Positions 36,453 through 46,222 of a stretch of DNA of 46,222 bases are shown here, piece by piece (position 1 is the first letter of the stretch; each line of letters starts with the position of its first letter). The DNA is from Sedimenticola sp. GTDB lineage: Bacteria; Pseudomonadota; Gammaproteobacteria; Chromatiales; Chromatiaceae. The notes below the pieces were generated by a model, which saw only the letters and a program-made list of their open reading frames with translations, was not told the DNA's origin and ran no database searches. The DNA is taken from assembly GCA_002869585.1 (NCBI GenBank), contig PKUO01000010.1:1-46222 (forward strand), read 5' to 3'. A program made the translations under genes and the position numbers.

Positions 36453-38420
36453 TCAACTGACGATGACGGTACGGAACATACCGAGCATGTGATAGAGCAA
36501 ATGGCAGTGGTAGGCCCAGCCGCCCTCGGCATCCACAGTAACCCGGTAGCTGATCCGCGAGCCTGGCTGAACGATCACAGTATGTTTGCGCGGAAGGTGG
36601 TTGTTATCACCCGTCTCCAAGTCACTCCACATTCCGTGCAGATGCATCGGATGATTCATCATGGTGTCATTCACCAGTGTAATGCGCAGTCGCTCTCCCA
36701 GTTTCCAGCGAAGAGGCTCTGCATCACTATGCTTGACGCCATCGATCGACCACATATAGCGCCCCATATTACCAGTCAGGTGAAGTTCTATTTCCCGGTC
36801 AGGTTCACGATGGTCATGGGTGGTTCGGAGGTTTCGAAGATCTGCATAAGTCAGGACTCGACGTCCGTTATTCCGCAGTCCAACTCCGGGGTCATCGAGT
36901 CGGTATTGTGGTGTATCGGCCAACATATCCACATGCGGACCATACTCGGTCGATGCGTGTTTAACAGTAGCACTGCTAAAATCGGATGGGCTGGATTTCA
37001 TTACCGCTTTATTCATGCCCGTCATAGCACTATGGTCCATGCCTGGCATGTTGTTGTGATCCATGTCCGTCATAGCACTGTGATCCATGCCCGGCATGTT
37101 GTTGTGATCCATGTCTGTCATAGCACTGTGATCCATGCCCGGCATGTTGTCATGCTCCATGCCCTTCATAGCACTGTGATCCATACTTGGCATCTCATGG
37201 CCAGTATGATCCATCATGTTCATGCCCATATCCCCATGTCCCAGATTCGGTACAGGGTCCAGTTCGGGAACGGGTGCCTGCTGTGATAGGTTGGATGTCA
37301 GAGTGCCTCTGGCATACCCACTGCGTGCAATATCCTGTGCGAAGATGGTATAGGCAGTATCATCGCCCGGCTCAACGATCACATCATAGGTCTCGGCGAT
37401 TCCGATACGGAACTCGTCAACCATCACCGGTTCGACATATTGTCCATCAGCGGCAACCACTGTCATTTTCAGACCGGGAATACGCACATCAAAAAAGGTC
37501 ATGGCTGAACCATTGATAAAACGCAGGCGTACCTTCTCACCCTTAGTGAACAGACCAGTCCAGCCATCCACAGGAGTCTGGCCATTGGTCAGATAGGTGT
37601 AGGTATAACCGGTCACATCAGACAGATCGCGTTGACTCATGCGCATCTGGTTCCACATTCTGCGATCACTCCAGGTAGCGGCAAGACCTTTCGACTTCAT
37701 ATCCGCGACCAAATCAGTGTGGCTGCGCTCATTGAAGTTGTAGTAGTGGCTGAGTTTCTTCAGTTTGGCGTAGACATCGATGGGATCTTCATCGGTCCAA
37801 TCGGAGAACATCACCACGTAGTCACGATCATAGCTAAACGGCTCAGGCTCCAGAGGATCGATGATTATCGGGCCATAGAGCCCTGTCTGCTCCTGAAACC
37901 CGGAGTGACTGTGATACCAGTAGGTACCACTCTGGAGTACAGGAAATTGGTAGGTAAAGCTTTCTCCAGGCTTAATCCCATTGAAACCCGTGGCAATGCC
38001 GGGCACACCATCCATCGCGCTTGGAAGGATAATGCCATGCCAGTGAATGGAACTGGTCTCGTGCAATAAATTAGTGACTCGCAGAGTAACGCGATCACCT
38101 TCTCGCCAACGGAGAACTGGCGCCGGCAAGGAACCGTTAACGGTGGTGGCAAGACGTGGCGCCCCGGTAAAATTGACGGCCTGCTCACTAAGGATCAATT
38201 TAAAATTATTGCCCTGCAGGGTTTCGGGGCCTTGATGCCTGGTGACATCAGCCAGGGTTCTGGGTCCCAACCCAATGCTGGCAAAAGCGCCCCCCATTGC
38301 CAGCCCCTGTACAAATCGGCGGCGTGTCAAACAGATTCCATCTTGAGATTGGGAATTATTTTGAGTATCGGAAAATCGGGCACAAGCACTGCCCTTAATC
38401 AAGTTATTGATGAGGCTCAT
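36453..38420 (-). CDS. copA: Copper resistance multicopper oxidase CopA
   Basis: CopA oxidises and binds copper in the periplasm. From the ATG at 38420 the product is 655 residues. A Tat signal (TRRRFVQGLAMGG, Arg33-Arg35) indicates folded export. Copper-site motifs are in order: HWHG, WYHSHSG, HPMHLHGMW and AYHCHLLYHMLGMF with the type 1 Cys. A Met/His-rich insert at about residues 410-468 holds tandem MDHSAM repeats. SD-like GAGG lies about 15 bases before the ATG; an upstream TTG is not needed. copB follows by 13 bases. Confidence 0.96.
   Translation of the reverse strand: MSLINNLIKGSACARFSDTQNNSQSQDGICLTRRRFVQGLAMGGAFASIGLGPRTLADVTRHQGPETLQGNNFKLILSEQAVNFTGAPRLATTVNGSLPAPVLRWREGDRVTLRVTNLLHETSSIHWHGIILPSAMDGVPGIATGFNGIKPGESFTYQFPVLQSGTYWYHSHSGFQEQTGLYGPIIIDPLEPEPFSYDRDYVVMFSDWTDEDPIDVYAKLKKLSHYYNFNERSHTDLVADMKSKGLAATWSDRRMWNQMRMSQRDLSDVTGYTYTYLTNGQTPVDGWTGLFTKGEKVRLRFINGSAMTFFDVRIPGLKMTVVAADGQYVEPVMVDEFRIGIAETYDVIVEPGDDTAYTIFAQDIARSGYARGTLTSNLSQQAPVPELDPVPNLGHGDMGMNMMDHTGHEMPSMDHSAMKGMEHDNMPGMDHSAMTDMDHNNMPGMDHSAMTDMDHNNMPGMDHSAMTGMNKAVMKSSPSDFSSATVKHASTEYGPHVDMLADTPQYRLDDPGVGLRNNGRRVLTYADLRNLRTTHDHREPDREIELHLTGNMGRYMWSIDGVKHSDAEPLRWKLGERLRITLVNDTMMNHPMHLHGMWSDLETGDNNHLPRKHTVIVQPGSRISYRVTVDAEGGWAYHCHLLYHMLGMFRTVIVS
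37018..37193 (-). repeat. 48-base tandem repeats encoding Met/His-rich copper-binding insert
   Basis: Unit GMDHSAMTDMDHNNMP occurs twice exactly in protein (GMDHSAMTD etc.), flanked by a degenerate first copy (SMDHSAMKGMEHDNMP) and a partial last copy (GMDHSAMTGMNKAVM). The DNA copies are nearly identical, so copy number may vary by slippage. Confidence 0.85.
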
Positions 38421-38525
38421 AGAGTGATTCTTCCTCTGCAAGTCAGCAGCTTCTGGCCACCAACATAGTGTCAACAGTGTGTTGCCTTTTGATAATCGCT
38501 GAACAATCAGCAATCTGCGGAAGAA

Positions 38526-39212: not shown

Positions 39213-39252
39213 AAAAAGAAAAAGGCTCACACCGAAAAACGATGTAAGCCTT
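39213..39252 (-). terminator. Intrinsic terminator of the ancestral tRNA-Lys
   Basis: On the minus strand GGCTTACATCG and CGGTGTGAGCC form an 11-bp stem (two G-T pairs) around TTTTT, followed by TTTTTCTTTTT. It lies 12 bases past the CCA of the tRNA-Lys remnant, as expected for a tRNA terminator. Confidence 0.85.
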
Positions 39253-39261
39253 TGATTTATA

Positions 39262-39310
39262 TGGTGGGCCATGAAGGATTCGAACCTTCGACCAATGGAT
39301 TAAGAGTCCC
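39262..39310 (-). other. tRNA-Lys(CTT) 3'-half: attachment site of the integrated element
   Basis: On the minus strand the 49 bases start GGGACTCTTAATCC, giving loop CTCTTAA with anticodon CTT. They continue with the variable loop, a perfect T arm GAAGG-TTCGAAT-CCTTC, acceptor half ATGGCCC, discriminator A and CCA. No 5' half (GGGCCAT, D arm, 5' anticodon stem) is found to the right, where AT-rich sequence begins. This is the pattern left by a tyrosine recombinase that integrates in the tRNA 3' end. The intact tRNA should be rebuilt at the far end of the element. Confidence 0.8.
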
Positions 39311-39478: not shown

Positions 39479-40642
39479 ATGTCAGAAAAAATCAGACTCA
39501 CAAAACGACTGGTGGATGCCACCAGGCCGCCGGAGCAAGACGGGGCTTTCATTCAGGTATGGGATACTGAAATCCCTGGGTTCGGCCTCCGGGTAACAGC
39601 CTATGGTGTCAAATCCTATATCCTCAACTACCGCATTCACGGTCGCCAGCGAAAATACACCATAGGCCGTCATGGTGATTTCACCGCTGATCAGGCGAGA
39701 CAGGAAGCGCTGAAATTAAGGGCGCGTATCGCCTCAGGTGATGACCCCCAGGCAGAGAAACACAAAGCGAGCAGTATCCCCCTGCTCTTCCAGTTTGCCG
39801 AAGAATATATTTCGCATATCAAAAAAAGTAAAAAGACCTGGAAGAATGACGAGGCCAAACTGAAAACCCGCATTTTGCCAAAATGGGGAAAGCTGCGGCT
39901 CGATACCATCACCACCCGCCAGATTGAAACGCTCCATAACAACATCAAAGATGCGCGCACCCCGGCAACCGCCAATCGACATTTAGCCATGCTCAAGCGG
40001 ATGTTTAATCTGGCGACCCAATGGGGATATCTGGAGATTAACCCTGCACAGCATGTGAAGCTCTTTAAGGAGAATAACGAGCGGACTGCCTGGTTGGATG
40101 CCCGACAGATCAAACGACTGCTGACGGCCTGTCAGGCCTATCCAGATCCCTTTATCGGGGCTTTCTATCCGTTTCTACTCTATACCGGCGCAAGGTCTGG
40201 TGAGGCACAGAATGCCAAATGGCAGTCGATCGACCTTGAGCGGGGCATGTGGCACATTCCCGAAGCAAAAAGCGGTAAAGGACGTTATGTGCCGTTAGCA
40301 CCCCCAGCGGTGAGTTTATTGAAGGCCTTGCCGCTGCATGCAGGGAACCCCTATGTCTTTTGCGGTCAGGTTCCGGGGCAAGCGGTCGTTAATGTTGCCA
40401 AACCCTGGAAACGTATCCGCATAGAGGCAGATTTGCCCGATGATTTCCGGATTCATGATTTGCGCCATACCTTTGCCTCTTGGGGTGTGTCCAATGGGAT
40501 TGACCTTTACCACATTCAGGCCTTACTGGGTCACTCCTCCTCGCAAATGACCCAACGCTACTCACATTTAGCTGAAGATGGCATCAAATCCAGTGTTCGC
40601 CAGATCAGTGGTTTCATGGAAGAGGCACAAAAGCAGGACTAA
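39479..40642 (+). CDS. int: Tyrosine recombinase (integrase) of the element
   Basis: The 387-residue product integrates and excises the element. The start is the ATG at 39479 with GGGAGGGG upstream. It has the DUF4102-type N-terminal domain (residues 1-85, DTEIPGFGLRVTAYGVKSY), a core-binding domain (about 100-190) and the catalytic domain with Arg239 (TGARSGE), His326 and Arg329 (HDLRHTF), His352 (LLGHSS) and nucleophile Tyr361 (QRYSH). All catalytic residues are present. This P4-like class usually targets tRNA genes, matching the tRNA-Lys remnant 169 bases upstream. Confidence 0.95.
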   Translation: MSEKIRLTKRLVDATRPPEQDGAFIQVWDTEIPGFGLRVTAYGVKSYILNYRIHGRQRKYTIGRHGDFTADQARQEALKLRARIASGDDPQAEKHKASSIPLLFQFAEEYISHIKKSKKTWKNDEAKLKTRILPKWGKLRLDTITTRQIETLHNNIKDARTPATANRHLAMLKRMFNLATQWGYLEINPAQHVKLFKENNERTAWLDARQIKRLLTACQAYPDPFIGAFYPFLLYTGARSGEAQNAKWQSIDLERGMWHIPEAKSGKGRYVPLAPPAVSLLKALPLHAGNPYVFCGQVPGQAVVNVAKPWKRIRIEADLPDDFRIHDLRHTFASWGVSNGIDLYHIQALLGHSSSQMTQRYSHLAEDGIKSSVRQISGFMEEAQKQD

Positions 40643-40696
40643 CGGCAAAGACAATAAATCACGCGTAACCATTCAGATTAGAAAAAAGGGAAAGGT

Positions 40697-41455
40697 ATGC
40701 CGCGCAGTACAATATTTGATAATTACTTGCCGTTAACGGGTGAGATCAATACAGAATCACCGTATGCCTTTTATCTGGAATTGATAGTCATGCGCGCAAG
40801 GCGAATATTAAAAACGCGCAGCGAGGGGCAGATAACAGACGCTTTAGATGTGCTGTACTGGATGATCCAGGAAGGCGATCACGAGCAGCTGAAAGAAGCC
40901 CAATCAAAAGATTTCGATCAGTCTGGATATGTCATGACCGAGGCAAAGGCGCTTCGCCTGTTTATGCCGCTGTTTGATATCAAACAGCAGGAGACGTTTC
41001 CGGATGCCAAATGGGAGGAGTATTTTGCCACCCTCGCACTGTCACAAGTAGCACAGATTGTAATCTCGGCCGAACTCTCTACTGCGAATACTGAGTTCCC
41101 CGATATTCAGGGCGATTATTCGTCTGGGCAACACAAAAAAAGCGTTCAACTTGACCAATTATTGGAGGCTGCTGAAACGATTAGTGCAGCCGAATTTCTG
41201 GCCGAGGGAAAAAACTATATGGCGCGTGCGGGTAGCGCAGGTGGTAAGCGTAGGGTCAAAAAATTCGAGCAATTAAAACAGCACGTTCACAAGGAATGGG
41301 AAACCAAACATAAACGCCGCACTAATCGTGATGCGGCAAAACGGATCTGGGAAGAGATGCCAGAAGATTATCAAAAAGTACTCAGCACTGACGAACCACA
41401 AAAGCGCCTGGAAATCTGGATCGGAAAATGGAAAAAAGGAATAGCAATCCCTTAA
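40697..41455 (+). CDS. Unrecognised element protein, 252 residues
   Basis: The product is 252 residues after GGGAAAGG at the ATG. It is soluble and mostly helical. The N-terminal half (PYAFYLELIVMRARRILK and ALDVLYWMIQEGDHEQL) and the basic C-terminal third (GGKRRVKKFEQLKQ, then NRDAAKRIWEEMPEDYQKVL and QKRLEIWIGKW) suggest a DNA-associated protein. I recognise no domain. It lies between int and the HTH/rep pair, directly before the twin palindromes. Similar proteins beside integrases in other elements would be the best clue to role. Confidence 0.8.
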   Translation: MPRSTIFDNYLPLTGEINTESPYAFYLELIVMRARRILKTRSEGQITDALDVLYWMIQEGDHEQLKEAQSKDFDQSGYVMTEAKALRLFMPLFDIKQQETFPDAKWEEYFATLALSQVAQIVISAELSTANTEFPDIQGDYSSGQHKKSVQLDQLLEAAETISAAEFLAEGKNYMARAGSAGGKRRVKKFEQLKQHVHKEWETKHKRRTNRDAAKRIWEEMPEDYQKVLSTDEPQKRLEIWIGKWKKGIAIP

Positions 41456-41458
41456 AAG

Positions 41459-41498
41459 TATATTCGAAGCGCTTCGAATATATTTCCTAGCGCTTCGA
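41459..41498. promoter_or_regulatory. Twin operator: 24-bp palindrome plus second half-conserved copy
   Basis: 41459-41482 is a perfect 24-bp palindrome (half TATATTCGAAGC). The core AGCGCTTCGA recurs at 41489-41498, 21 bases after the first copy (41468-41477), two helical turns. It lies 4 bases after the 252-residue gene and about 65 before the HTH gene, so it likely controls the HTH-rep transcript. It could also end the upstream one. Confidence 0.65.
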
Positions 41499-41563
41499 GG
41501 ATTCCTCACGACCCGGCACTCCTATAAAACGTCTTCTGTAAGGAAAAACAACAGGAGACAACA

Positions 41564-41854
41564 ATGTCTGAAAATCGCTCAACTATTTCAAGTGATGTAA
41601 CGCGGGCCAGATCGAGAAGTCACGCGCTTTCCGGTTTGGATCTACTACTGACCGAAACCGAAGCAGCCGAACTGATCGGCTTTTCCCGCAATACCCTGCG
41701 CGCCTGGCGTGTTTCAGGACGCGCAACAGCATTTCCTCCGCCTCCGTTCATTAAGTGTGGCCGATCCGTACGCTATCGCGCCTCAGATTTACAGCAGTGG
41801 ATGGCTGAGCAGGTGCTTCTTCGCTCCACCAGTGATCAGGAGCAAGCCGCATGA
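41564..41854 (+). CDS. AlpA/excisionase-like HTH protein
   Basis: The 96-residue product has a helix-turn-helix of the AlpA/MerR-like type: LLLTETEAAELIGFSRNTLR and AWRVSG, then the wing GRSVRYRASDLQQWM. AGGAGA lies just before the ATG. Such proteins act as excisionase or as activators of int and replication genes in satellites and islands. Its TGA overlaps the rep ATG (ATGA), so it is translationally coupled to the replication gene. The twin palindromes upstream are its natural candidate binding sites. Confidence 0.88.
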   Translation: MSENRSTISSDVTRARSRSHALSGLDLLLTETEAAELIGFSRNTLRAWRVSGRATAFPPPPFIKCGRSVRYRASDLQQWMAEQVLLRSTSDQEQAA

Positions 41855-43575
41855 ATGTTTCTGACATGCCCCTCATGCCACCTGCGCCCTGGCATGTCAC
41901 TCCAGGCGAACGGGCGATTTGGGAAACCTCAGATCCCTATGGCTATGACCGTGAGTGGCGACACGAACTGTTTGAAAAACTACCGCTCGGATTTGGTGAA
42001 AAACTGGCGGGTCAATACCGAAAGGATTGGCGGGGTGAAGGGAGGAAAAAAGCCAACACCCGTCTGCGTATTACCGCGCGCCCCTTTCTCGAATCTGGTT
42101 TGCCACTGCTTGCCGATGAGGACCAGTTAGTGCAACAGGCCAGAATCAAGGCCGATCATTGCCGGAGAATCATGTCCTATCATGCGGATTCACGGAAAGT
42201 CTTTGAGGCGCTCTGTGTGTACGCGGTTGAGTCAGGTATTAATCCTATCAAGCTTAGTGCAGCAATCAGCCAGCAAGGGGCCATCAGGCGCTTCTGCTGG
42301 GATGACTGGTGGAAACGTCAGCTCAGAAAGGCGCAGGGCATGGCCATTGAAACCGGAGCCATTTATGGGGGCTTGGTTCAAAATCGAAGAAATATCTATG
42401 TCAGTGATGAAAACTTGGAGAGACAACGCGAACAAAGCCGCCGCACCCGATCAATACTCGAAAGCCTGGTTGCGGTGAATGAGCTGGATGATTCCTACAC
42501 TTTGCAGGAGTTAGCCGACTTATCGGTTTCAAACCCGGTGATTCTGCGCAACGAGATGATGACCCGCATAATGGGTACGGAGTTGTTTGCCGATACAGAA
42601 GGCTTTCTTGCCTTCTTCCTGACCTTGACCTGTCCATCCAGGTTTCATGCCCGCTACAGCAAGAGTGGCGAAGAAAACCCCAATTATGACGGTAGCACCC
42701 CGAAACAGGGTCAGGCCTACCTGAATAAAATTTGGAGCCTGATGCGTTCCCGTTGGAAAGATCACGGCCTGGAGGTTTTTGGGGTCCGGATTGCTGAACC
42801 GCATCATGACGGGACACCCCATTGGCACATCCTCATTTTCCTTAAAGAAAAAGATAAAGACCTGTGCCTGGATTTCTTTAAGAAATATGCCTTAAAGGAT
42901 TCCCCGGATGAGGCTGGAGCCCTTATAAGGCGATTCAAGATCGAGGAGATTGATAAATCGAGAGGGAGCGCCGTGGGTTATGTGGCCAAATATATCTCAA
43001 AGAATATTGACGGCTATGGGGTTGAGTATGACGAACTGGGAAATGATGCTGCCTCATCGGCCGAACGTGTGAGGACATGGGCAAAAACCTGGGGGATACG
43101 TCAGTTCCAGTTTTTTGGGGTTCCCCCTGTAACCGTTTGGCGGGAACTGCGGCGGATTCATTCTGAGATCAGTGGTTCAGCGCCATTAGAGAGAGCCAGG
43201 CAGGCCGCTGATACGGGTAATTGGGCCGAGTATATCTACGCAATGGACGGCGTGTGTATCAGCCGTGACGAGCGGCCTATAGCCCTTATAAAGGTCTGGT
43301 CAGACAAGCCCAATAGATATGATGAACCGGTGGGCGAAATAATCGTTGGGGTCACAACCGGTGATATCACCATCCAAACCCGCATCCATGTCTGGACTAT
43401 AGGCAAAAAGGTCATTGAGGAGGGTGTGCCAAACAGTGATGACCATACCTATAGCACCTGGGATGAATACACTGGCGCAATAACCAGGGAACCTAAAGGG
43501 TCGAACGACCCTTTAGGATTAGAAAATAATTTTGGCCAAAGGCCAGTCCTTACTTACTTGGAGTTCTGTCAATAA
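41851..43575 (+). CDS. HUH replication initiator, phage P2 gpA type
   Basis: The 574-residue product is a rolling-circle initiator that nicks one strand and stays covalently attached. The HUH metal motif is His324-Trp-His326 in HHDGTPHWHILIF. The two catalytic tyrosines are Tyr377 and Tyr381 in GYVAKYISKN, spaced as in P2 gpA and phiX174 gpA (YxxxY), which separates it from one-Tyr plasmid Rep proteins. LAFFLTLTCPSRFHARYSK is the preceding conserved motif. The Phage_GPA family call is firm; the element need not be a full phage, since no capsid or tail genes are seen. A perfect hairpin lies in its 3' end. Confidence 0.92.
   Translation: MNVSDMPLMPPAPWHVTPGERAIWETSDPYGYDREWRHELFEKLPLGFGEKLAGQYRKDWRGEGRKKANTRLRITARPFLESGLPLLADEDQLVQQARIKADHCRRIMSYHADSRKVFEALCVYAVESGINPIKLSAAISQQGAIRRFCWDDWWKRQLRKAQGMAIETGAIYGGLVQNRRNIYVSDENLERQREQSRRTRSILESLVAVNELDDSYTLQELADLSVSNPVILRNEMMTRIMGTELFADTEGFLAFFLTLTCPSRFHARYSKSGEENPNYDGSTPKQGQAYLNKIWSLMRSRWKDHGLEVFGVRIAEPHHDGTPHWHILIFLKEKDKDLCLDFFKKYALKDSPDEAGALIRRFKIEEIDKSRGSAVGYVAKYISKNIDGYGVEYDELGNDAASSAERVRTWAKTWGIRQFQFFGVPPVTVWRELRRIHSEISGSAPLERARQAADTGNWAEYIYAMDGVCISRDERPIALIKVWSDKPNRYDEPVGEIIVGVTTGDITIQTRIHVWTIGKKVIEEGVPNSDDHTYSTWDEYTGAITREPKGSNDPLGLENNFGQRPVLTYLEFCQ
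43492..43517. repeat. 12-bp perfect hairpin in the rep 3' end, candidate origin
   Basis: CCTAAAGGGTCG and CGACCCTTTAGG flank AA only. It is within the last 60 bases of rep. In P2 the origin lies inside gene A, and HUH initiators recognise hairpins, so a nick-site role is possible; a convergent terminator is the alternative. Confidence 0.6.
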
Positions 43576-43587
43576 CTGTACGGTAAC

Positions 43588-46222
43588 TTAACCAATTGCA
43601 GTATCAATCTGCTGATAAACATTCCGACCTTTATCATCAAGCTCTACGACCATAAGGAATAGGCAGCGACCATCACTCTCCTTTGCCCAACGCAGGCCTA
43701 CAGCATTCTTCACCTTTGAGTCATCATTGGTCCTATAGACAGCACCCTTGTATTCAATAACAAATAGGCGACCATCTTCCAGTTCAGCAACAAAATCAGG
43801 GTAAAACCAAGCATTACCTAAAGGCAATCGGAAAGAAGCTTGATGCCGATCTACAAGGTTTCGCACCCAATATTTTACCTTGCTATTGGCATCAATGGCC
43901 TGAGCACATAAAAACTCTTCACCATCCACCTTCAAATCTTCAATAACAGGATAGTAATGTTTGCGGAACTTATAGGCCCCACTATAATACGGACTGCGCG
44001 CAGGGTAGAGACCCGGCTTAAACTCAAAGCCATATTCAAAACTGGTTTCCAGTGGTGCATCATCAGCAAAAATCGACTGCTGAAACCCCTGATCAGCCGC
44101 CTGGCTTTGCAGCAGCATGAGTCGTTGCCGCAACGCTCTGATCAAAAGAAATTTACTTCTGACAAGTGCCGTCAGCGTGTAACCCTTTTCACCTATCATG
44201 TGCGACACCATCTTAACCAAGAACTGATGCATGATGGCCTGATTAAGATGTGGGCTACGTAGCTGCCTATCCAGCCAACGCACCAAGTCATTTTCCGTTA
44301 CATCCATTTGCACCAAATCAAGGTTATAAACCTCCTTCTCTTCCGCAACCTGATAGCTAACTTTCTTACCTTCTACATCTACTTCAAAGGTGGTGTCACT
44401 CTGCTTAATCGAAAAGCCGGGTAATTCAATAGGGAAATCCAGTGGCGACCAATCACCATTCAAGAAAAGAAAGCTCTCTGGCTCTATCAACTCCAACTCA
44501 CCCTGCTTGGCAAAACAGAGCTGAGGCAAAATGGCAAAAGGGATACCCTTTTCAGACGGAGAGAGGGAAACCTCTACGCGGGCGTTATGTTGCTCTATTT
44601 GATCCTGGATCTCTTTCTTTTCCGTGCCCTTGAGTGGTTTGAGGATTTGTTTGTGTAGTGTCTCATCCAGCTTGCCAGATACCTCTATTCGATAACTATC
44701 ACCAACCTGCAGGACACTGACATTAGCTAACAAGGGTTCATGCTCGGGCTTGAACTCTGGCTTGCCGGGAAGATCAATAACTAGCGGTGGTTCAGGTGTC
44801 GGGGTGTAGGTTTCACCAGGGCCGAACATATCATTAGGAGCACCGTGTCGGATATGGGCAGGAACCTCCATGGCCTCAAAGCCCATATTGATCAACTTGT
44901 CTGTCAGTGTTTTCGCTACCGCAGAAAAGCTAGGTGATGCCAAATGGGCATAAGCTCGATTCAATGCTTCAATTTTACGCCGAGTTGCATAAGGCATACG
45001 CAATACACGGCCAAGCAGTTGTTCCGCATCTTTGCTGGAGCGCACATCACGCACGGAACAGAAGACATAGGCAAAAGAACAGTCCCAGCCCTCTTTCAAT
45101 GCTTCGACAGTAATGATGTATTCAATCTTGCAATCAGGAGCAAACAGGTTAATACCATCCAGTTCACGCTGTGTTCCCGTTACGACTGCTATCTTTTTCT
45201 CTTCAATCTTTAGTTCATCGATTAAATAGGTCTTCAGCTTTTCCCAAGGAACCTCACCGTTTTTCTTATCGGCCTGTAGCAACACTATAGGCCTGATATA
45301 GCTCTCTTCTTTTTGTGCCTCAGTCGCCAGCTTATTCCGGGTCAACGAAGCATCTCGAACCGCCGCCTGCCAGTCATTGTGTTCTGTCAGCATGATGGGC
45401 AACTTAATCATCTCCTCTGCTTTCAATTCAGAAGCAGAGACGTGATAAAGCACATTTGAGGCCGATGTATTGGATTGATCGGGTGTAGCCGTGAATTCAA
45501 TCACACAGGCAGGATGTACGCGCTTGAGTGTTTCAAAGGTCAATGGAGTACGGGCATTATGCGCCTCGTCCATAATTACCAGGGGATGCCTCATAGCCAA
45601 CAGATTGGCAAATGAAAACTTAACCTTACCTAAGTCACCTCTACCCAAACCATTCTCTTTCAAATCCGATTCAGTGACCCGTTCAAAGCGTTCATCATTA
45701 GGATCTATTCCAGCAAAATGCGGCTCAAAATCTTCATGGTAAGCGTAGACCTTACGATCACTGGTATCGGAGACACGCAGATTGGCCAAGGTACTGACTA
45801 CGACGATGGCTTGTGAACCCAGATCTTGCTGGCGAATCTGAGTCACTTCATCGTCTTCCAGTATCCTTACACGTTGATCAAAGGCCCTGTCCAGTTCTGC
45901 ACGATAGGGATGACCGGGCTGTTTTAGTGCCTCAAGCGTCTGCCTTTGAATGGTGTTGGTCGGTACCAGCCATAAAACGATGGGGTAGTCCTGTTCCAGA
46001 TAGGCACGGGTTGCCACCTTGATTGCGTGGGATGCTAACACTGTCTTACCGCCACCCGTAGGCAGGCGCAGACAGACATAAGGCACTTGCTCAAAACTGT
46101 AATGCCGATAGGGAAACGCGGTTTTACCCTGTTTAACCAGGCTTTGTTCAAACGCCTGCTCTACGGGCATTAGCCGGGCATCGGCCAAAAACCGTTCCAA
46201 TGCCTCAATGGTCTGTTCCTGG
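43588..46222 (-). CDS. DEAD/DEAH helicase-nuclease, type III restriction Res-like (5' end outside window)
   Basis: The minus-strand frame runs from a stop at 43588 to the window edge without a start that is clearly authentic; the frame stays open beyond a TTG at 46200, so the gene is partial at its 5' end. At least 877 residues are visible. Helicase motifs in order: LPTGGGKT (Walker A), MDEAHN (II), FTATP (III), and QLLGRVLRMP (VI). The C-terminus has YPDFV followed by LFVIEYKG, a PD-(D/E)xK nuclease. This is the layout of Res subunits of type III restriction systems. A Mod methyltransferase, if present, must lie to the right. It is convergent with rep. Confidence 0.9.
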   Translation of the reverse strand, partial: QEQTIEALERFLADARLMPVEQAFEQSLVKQGKTAFPYRHYSFEQVPYVCLRLPTGGGKTVLASHAIKVATRAYLEQDYPIVLWLVPTNTIQRQTLEALKQPGHPYRAELDRAFDQRVRILEDDEVTQIRQQDLGSQAIVVVSTLANLRVSDTSDRKVYAYHEDFEPHFAGIDPNDERFERVTESDLKENGLGRGDLGKVKFSFANLLAMRHPLVIMDEAHNARTPLTFETLKRVHPACVIEFTATPDQSNTSASNVLYHVSASELKAEEMIKLPIMLTEHNDWQAAVRDASLTRNKLATEAQKEESYIRPIVLLQADKKNGEVPWEKLKTYLIDELKIEEKKIAVVTGTQRELDGINLFAPDCKIEYIITVEALKEGWDCSFAYVFCSVRDVRSSKDAEQLLGRVLRMPYATRRKIEALNRAYAHLASPSFSAVAKTLTDKLINMGFEAMEVPAHIRHGAPNDMFGPGETYTPTPEPPLVIDLPGKPEFKPEHEPLLANVSVLQVGDSYRIEVSGKLDETLHKQILKPLKGTEKKEIQDQIEQHNARVEVSLSPSEKGIPFAILPQLCFAKQGELELIEPESFLFLNGDWSPLDFPIELPGFSIKQSDTTFEVDVEGKKVSYQVAEEKEVYNLDLVQMDVTENDLVRWLDRQLRSPHLNQAIMHQFLVKMVSHMIGEKGYTLTALVRSKFLLIRALRQRLMLLQSQAADQGFQQSIFADDAPLETSFEYGFEFKPGLYPARSPYYSGAYKFRKHYYPVIEDLKVDGEEFLCAQAIDANSKVKYWVRNLVDRHQASFRLPLGNAWFYPDFVAELEDGRLFVIEYKGAVYRTNDDSKVKNAVGLRWAKESDGRCLFLMVVELDDKGRNVYQQIDTAIG

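Follow-up and report, generated by a model that had tools for sequence, protein, structure and literature searches.

A gene for a gpA-type rolling-circle initiator, preceded by an integrase gene and followed by a restriction gene, lies at the right end of a 46,222-nucleotide contig from Sedimenticola sp. (PKUO01000010.1, assembly GCA_002869585.1). This stretch, here called the window, is the entire contig C94 of a 3.93 Mb genome in 109 contigs. Which kind of element do these genes belong to, and can it move? A preliminary description had interpreted them as a compact element consisting of an integrase, a 252-residue protein, an AlpA-like helix-turn-helix (HTH) protein, a P2-type HUH initiator and a restriction helicase, and had proposed a rolling-circle satellite or a degraded P2-like element that acts as a defence carrier. 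Our results suggest, with a probability of roughly 0.7, that the genes belong to a compact integrative defence island of about 10 kb, which lacks virion genes, replicates by a rolling-circle mechanism and probably depends on a helper.

The element and its ends

Over its final 99 bases, the window is identical to the end of contig C100 and to no other place in the genome, so that the two contigs could be joined and the element, as had been proposed, followed rightward to its end. Measured from the inner edge of the tRNA-Lys copy to the end of the tRNA gene, it spans 9,828 bp of the window and C100. The insertion site is a tRNA-Lys(CTT) gene, which is intact at the cargo end and has its 3' end duplicated at the integrase end. 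The repeat reaches position 39244 via a similar terminator and then covers 66 bp, 61 of which are identical (92% identity). The G+C content of the element is 47.8%, compared with 54.7% at window positions 1-39000 and 56.7% at C100:1-20000, which indicates a foreign composition. The genes are arranged in the order integrase (int), X (252 amino acids), HTH_17 protein, gpA-type HUH initiator, convergent res and mod, AbiD and the intact tRNA-Lys, with the following features (positions in C100 lie outside the window, and two of them are also given in the numbering of locus L009):

39262 to 39309, minus strand: attL, an exact 48-bp copy of the tRNA-Lys(CTT) 3' end, by sequence match to the intact tRNA
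39479 to 40642, plus strand: tyrosine integrase, 387 amino acids (Phage_integrase, E 8.3e-31; Arm-DNA-bind_3, 2.2e-18)
40697 to 41455, plus strand: X, a 252-amino-acid protein of unknown function, with homologues in six other elements, between int and initiator
41456 to 41498, no strand: palindrome with a partial second copy, between X and the HTH gene; candidate operator or excisionase site
41564 to 41854, plus strand: HTH_17 excisionase/AlpA-like DNA-binding protein, 96 amino acids (Pfam HTH_17, PF12728, E 1.1e-10), overlapping the start of gpA
41851 to 43575, plus strand: gpA-type HUH rolling-circle initiator, 574 amino acids (Phage_GPA, E 3.5e-81; PHROG 91, "nicking at origin", 1.9e-156)
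43588 to 46222 in the window, minus strand: Type III Res subunit, 884 amino acids (PADLOC REase_III, 4.3e-231)
C100:30826-32346: Type III mod with an in-frame TAG
C100:29855-30802: AbiD (PADLOC, 6.4e-80)
C100:29559-29603 (L009:9560-9604): tRNA-Thr-like 3'-half relic of 45 bp, about 100 bp inside the tRNA-Lys end
C100:29376-29451 (L009:9377-9452): intact tRNA-Lys(CTT)

Open reading frames (ORFs) and profile matches place all five genes where they had been described, and the sequence up to the tRNA end bears out the description of a compact integrative element with a two-tyrosine HUH initiator, defence genes and no virion genes. Virion, terminase and lysis genes were not found between the two ends, and none of the seven element proteins gave an accepted virion match in Pfam or PHROGs. 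Capsid, portal, terminase and tail genes of the P2-like kind, which would point to an ordinary prophage, are absent up to the tRNA end; res is followed by mod, AbiD and a Pro-Arg-His-Lys tRNA cluster that lies beyond AbiD in C100. The element also has no PHROG match to the PM2-like double-jelly-roll major capsid protein (MCP) or the P9 ATPase, and its ORFs include neither RadC nor YqaJ. The locus is not a product of chance, since the half-copy of the tRNA, the operon that runs across the contig join and the existence of a family of similar loci are each specific.

The integrase contains the motifs GARSGE at residue 237, HDLRHTFA at 326 and GHSSSQMTQRY from 351. The small DNA-binding protein is ranked best as an excisionase PHROG (E 1.9e-10), and "AlpA-like" is a fair label for it given the HTH_17 match, although it misses the cut-off of the AlpA family itself (Phage_AlpA, PF05930, score 15.7 against 21). 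The palindrome in front of its gene may be a binding site for this protein; the repeats preceding the initiator vary from member to member of the family.

Protein X gave nothing above the cut-off in Pfam (two matches at E 0.15 and 0.42) and, with the thresholds that were applied, nothing in PHROGs, NCBIfam or PADLOC. It had no match in the plasmid or phage sets either, and scans of the viral collection with an X alignment found no relative. AlphaFold predicts an all-helical fold in two models, with mean pLDDT values of 56 and 70. The first had no PDB match and the second no match in the viral library, both at E 0.001, and the best VIA score was Z 6.2 over 65 residues, so that the structural comparison was uninformative. 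The probable role of X is that of a DNA-binding regulator or a replication accessory of the core. A search of the genome contig collection with X yielded three loci. Homologues of X outside recognisable elements were seen at L020:8881-9846, L021:9625-10506 and L198:8893-9642. No integrase was present in the sequence covered at these loci, and one of the homologues lies beside apparent Type I restriction-modification (R-M) genes.

The gene first described as a restriction helicase is indeed Res-like, and more exactly encodes the Res subunit of a Type III R-M system. Its start lies 20 bp past the window end in C100 (first ATG at joined position 46242), by which the frame gains 14 residues. The protein combines a helicase with a PD-(D/E)xK nuclease, with the motifs GGGKT at 63, DEAH at 225, PDF at 815 and EYKG at 830. 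The Res and AbiD frames are open. The mod gene is interrupted by a TAG at L009:11646-11648, after codon 273, which leaves a first part of 273 amino acids and a second part, both otherwise open; the stop may be genuine or an assembly error. The Type III system may consequently be switched off in this copy. Adjoining the left end of the element, at window positions 36453-38513, is an ORF that by eye resembles a multicopper oxidase, with repeated Met/His/Asp/Ser motifs.

A family of elements with a common plan

The preliminary description had suggested that the set of int, 252-residue protein, HTH and gpA be sought in other genomes. All four occur together in two loci, L183 and L184, and parts of the set occur in others. 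Initiators of this gpA kind were identified in six of 195 genomes of the order (one a weak match) and 20 of 369 genomes of the class, the own genome included, and in two of 55 relatives, one of them weakly. X was found in 6/195 genomes of the order and 4/369 of the class, again including the own genome in both. From the 20 gpA-positive genomes of the class, 14 places in 13 genomes were fetched. Four were kept (L055, L056, L057 and L059), three contain virion genes (L058, L060 and L064), and L061, L062, L065, L066, L067 and L068 were left out as fragments, transposon-rich or very distant.

Thirteen elements were compared: the own element, L055, L056, L057, L059 and L183-L186, which contain gpA, and L019 and L195-L197, which contain X with another initiator. 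The twelve relatives all have parts of the same plan. The initiator is gpA in nine of the thirteen, a REP_ORF2-G2P protein in L195, L196 and L197 (E 9e-9, 1e-8 and 2e-6, the best family match for these proteins) and a DUF927 protein in L019. An integrase was seen in ten elements, and X lies after int and before the initiator in the own element, L183, L184, L019 and L195-L197. Among the 11 relatives scanned (all except L059), ten have a small HTH gene of this type ahead of the initiator gene and in the same orientation; the exception is L056. Twelve of the 13 loci have a tRNA or tmRNA gene, and the remaining one, L196, is a 5.4-kb contig. Direct repeats of the tRNA or tmRNA 3' end were found in eight (own, L019, L056, L183, L184, L185, L195 and L197), with L056 located at a tmRNA gene with a 36-bp repeat. 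Tandem partial copies of the 5' part of a tRNA-Leu occur just upstream of the intact gene at L055:5972-6091. Members that could be delimited, L056 and L183-L185 among them, measure 6.8 to 11.7 kb.

A phmmer search with 22 reference virion proteins, from which L019 was left out, found none in L055, L056, L057, L059, L183-L186 or L195-L198, and PM2-like MCP and P9 were likewise not found by phmmer in L055-L057, L059 and L183-L186. Matches to 29 PHROG families came from 36 ORFs outside the core, namely X and 35 ORFs of seven relatives, and none of the 25 families inspected was named as head, tail, connector or lysis. A scan of the viral collection with gpA alone found no relative. The scan with a gpA alignment gave at least 600 stretches, the best 80 of which were kept. 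Many of these viral loci scored as lacking hallmark genes because their flanks were short. This first "virion-less" score was partly a flank effect and was abandoned; tail-like genes are visible by eye in L074, L098 and L110. The P2 label of L063 refers to its place in the tree beside rows of the L074, L098 and L110 type and not to a hallmark match.

The cargo differs between members. Strong defence matches (PADLOC, E <1e-15) were obtained in seven of the 13 elements, with L196, whose cargo did not go through PADLOC, counted among the 13. These are Type III and AbiD in the own element, a C5 methylase in L056, a Type IIG system in L059 (which also has Fic), FRG and PDC-S15 in L183, a SIR2 protein in L184 (PDC-S25, 1.4e-16; ThsA, 3.6e-16), a Type III-like methylase in L186 and an MmeI-like Type IIG system in two ORFs in L197. 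In addition, L055 and L057 contain NACHT proteins by Pfam only, L195 a TIR match at 7e-8 and L019 a weak HNH match.

A trace of movement comes from L183, which occupies a tRNA-Met site. In three sister genomes (G781, G008 and G782), its left flank directly adjoins the tRNA, and these represent empty sites. In G780, G786 and G831, the left flanks at the same tRNA-Met site differ. The site looks like a hotspot, with other genes following in L239 (G786) and L241 (G831), including, by eye, a SIR2-like ORF in L241. Comparison of L183 and L184 indicates purifying selection on both gpA (dN 0.10, dS 0.99, dN/dS about 0.1) and int (0.09 and 1.03, about 0.09). The integrases of these two elements are 87% identical, the initiators 82% and the two tRNA-side genes 92% and 88%, while X is only 27% identical and the cargo in between differs. 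This common core with differing X and cargo suggests that modules are exchanged.

Among the integrases of L183-L186 and L019, identity is 47-87%, whereas the own integrase shares only 27-31% with them. Of the 45 positions of the relic inside the tRNA-Lys end, 36-40 agree with four tRNA-Thr genes from other hosts and 25-29 with eleven further tRNAs. With up to three mismatches allowed, the 36-bp core of the relic does not recur elsewhere in the own genome. Since the own integrase is divergent, the relic resembles tRNA-Thr and the relatives L185, L186, L057 and L197 occupy tRNA-Thr sites, an ancestor of the element may have resided at a tRNA-Thr gene and switched site when its integrase was replaced. 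An integrase C-terminal fragment lies beside gpA at L185:8977-9183 (Pfam, 1.3e-9), a trace of older recombination.

Taken as a defence island that moves, the element would be excised as a circle by the integrase, with the HTH protein acting as excisionase or regulator. A nick made by gpA would set off rolling-circle copying, for which the host would supply helicase and polymerase, and a helper, most likely a phage on which the element would be a satellite or hitch-hiker, would move the DNA. The integrase would then insert it into the tRNA gene of a new host, restoring the tRNA 3' end, and the cargo would pay for its keep as antiviral defence.

Several observations weigh against this reading. 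Excision, replication, transfer, the helper and the status as a satellite are all features that we infer from sequence. The own element has no matching empty site: G003, G004 and G005 keep the tRNA cluster, and the window flank is absent beside it. Compared with the empty sites, the L183 insertion has an additional 1.6 kb just left of its att copy that is unexplained. No integrase was seen in L055, L057 and L059, X is absent from gpA elements other than the own, L183 and L184, and in L185, which has the integrase remnant, neither of the two cargo ORFs run on PADLOC was matched. For the HTH protein there is also a weak match to PHROG 57 ("terminase small subunit", E 2.9e-4), far below the excisionase match. 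A PM2-type capsid gene, the sole helper type searched, was present in one of 12 element hosts (G829); of the 13 genomes searched, two were positive, one of which was the source of the query. G829 contains six contigs (L200-L205) with a PM2-like major capsid gene.

The missing empty site, the interrupted mod gene and the three relatives without an integrase would also fit an immobile defence island beside a tRNA gene, with gpA as a relic. However, gpA, int and the HTH protein are full length here, the tRNA half-copy lies at the int end, and the relatives show both polymorphism for empty sites and purifying selection, which makes such an island very improbable.

Ancestry of the initiator

The gpA protein is full length and contains HDGTPHWH at residue 319 and the two-tyrosine motif YVAKY at 377. 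It also matches a second Pfam family, REP_ORF2-G2P (E 3.7e-9). By tblastn, none of the nearest phage and plasmid records reaches 60% identity; among them are P2-like, PM2-like and filamentous phages. The initiator of the PM2-like provirus L058 is 46% identical over 410 amino acids. A search for unusually conserved gpA codons as a sign of the nick site picked out only tryptophan codons and did not locate the origin.

The HUH chemistry of this protein is the same as that used by relaxases, and Rep_trans-like proteins are described in the available text of PMC11389934 as MOBT relaxases in other elements. An integrative mobilizable element with a conjugative helper, in which the HUH protein doubles as relaxase, is nevertheless an improbable explanation: no Pfam relaxase family was found in the five proteins scanned (oriT was not sought), and the known role of the gpA family is that of initiators in phages.

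To place the initiator, a first tree of 98 rows was inferred (of 104 loci, five had no gpA ORF and in two it was too short), in which gpA clustered with L055, L056 and L059 (SH-aLRT 89); the gpA of L059 is N-terminally short, with 342 amino acids. A second tree contained 38 rows chosen by the analyst from the earlier loci plus four new ones, with CTXphi (RstA) left out and other inoviruses serving as yardsticks. Here, gpA joined L183 and L184 at 100/99, and six virion-less rows came together at 92/94, which is below the threshold for a starred node. L057, L185 and L186 fell into an unresolved fork with the PM2-like proviruses L058, L069 and L070. A single virion-less clade is not rejected (p-AU 0.373), nor is it demonstrated. 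The Peduovirus-type rows L103, L115, L126, L151 and L153, together with L060, L105 and two PM2-type rows, split off at 96/86, and the other P2-type rows L063, L074 and L098 were placed elsewhere, beside inoviruses. With gpA outside the Peduovirus clade, the term "P2-type" is imprecise and a degraded P2-like element is unlikely, also in view of the full-length gpA and the purifying selection on gpA and int of the two close relatives.

A broader version of this idea is that a prophage, either tailless (PM2-like) or P2-like, was stripped of its virion genes, so that the integrase, regulator, gpA and accessory defence locus are what remains. It would fit the PM2-like proviruses among the relatives of gpA, and tailless Vibrio prophages of <16 kb are described, in the available text of PMC11630473, with defence genes in a variable locus. 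We consider it unlikely, however: the virion-less state recurs in nine gpA elements, the core frames are intact with dN/dS near 0.1 and att repeats, and the same int-X-HTH core is found with other initiators.

A more far-reaching possibility, which we put forward only tentatively, is a distinct, unnamed satellite family. Its replicon would be based on a rolling-circle HUH initiator in place of a primase-helicase, with a fixed int-X-HTH core, an exchangeable initiator (gpA, G2P or DUF927) and exchangeable cargo. Its circle, single- or double-stranded, would be carried in the particles of small phages of the tailless or filamentous kind. These carriers are suggested by their initiators, which are the nearest virion-bearing relatives, and by their genomes, which are of the same size.

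Under the defence-island reading, elements of this kind are plausible carriers of single defence systems between bacteria, namely Type III, Type IIG and C5-methylase R-M, AbiD, SIR2, FRG and NACHT, and may help to explain how bacterial immune genes travel. Since int, X and HTH mark the core, and complete genomes with an occupied (G790) and an empty (G781) site exist, excision, replication and the helper are accessible to direct tests. Site switching could be traced through the exchange of initiators on a shared core and through the second tRNA-end relic that lies within this element.

Relation to known systems

Most described satellites replicate with primase-helicases. P2-like (Peduoviridae) prophages have an initiator of the gpA superfamily and a tyrosine integrase in common with the element, but their structural, terminase and lysis genes are absent here and gpA falls outside the Peduovirus rows. 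PM2-like phages and proviruses have a related initiator and a genome of nearly 10 kb, whereas the element contains neither MCP nor P9 and has defence genes where those have their virion block. Interchangeable defence genes in small integrated elements are also described for tailless and filamentous prophages of Vibrio, which encode virions, in the available text of PMC11630473.

Among the entries listed by the literature searches, judged by titles and the openings of abstracts, and with most subscription journals and preprints outside their scope, none described an int-X-HTH-HUH family. The PICMI elements of Vibrionaceae, as presented in the accessible part of PMC10803314, are similarly very small and combine an integrase, an AlpA/HTH_17 protein and a replication gene without capsid genes. 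They differ in having a DUF3987/DUF5906 primase and inserting at fis, whereas the element here has an HUH initiator and its family uses tRNA genes. No match to DUF3987 or DUF5906 was found in the element proteins with Pfam, and the replication gene is gpA.

The I23, I44 and I55 islands of Pseudomonas, as far as they are set out in the available text of PMC12595487, are transduced by a jumbo phage and have no genes for autonomous transfer. Like the family described here, they contain a tyrosine integrase, AlpA, direct repeats at a tRNA or tmRNA end and defence cargo such as R-M systems, and the "inovirus Gp2-like" protein of I55 recalls the REP_ORF2-G2P initiators of L195-L197, a likeness by description only (PMC12595487). 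However, these islands range from about 20 to more than 70 kb, compared with 6.8-11.7 kb here, and they contain RadC and YqaJ and are located at tmRNA, while the elements here are mostly found at tRNA-Lys, tRNA-Met or tRNA-Thr genes and contain gpA and X (PMC12595487). On that text, the I55-type islands are the nearest described class, and the family here appears to be a variant with a smaller size, protein X and mostly a gpA initiator.

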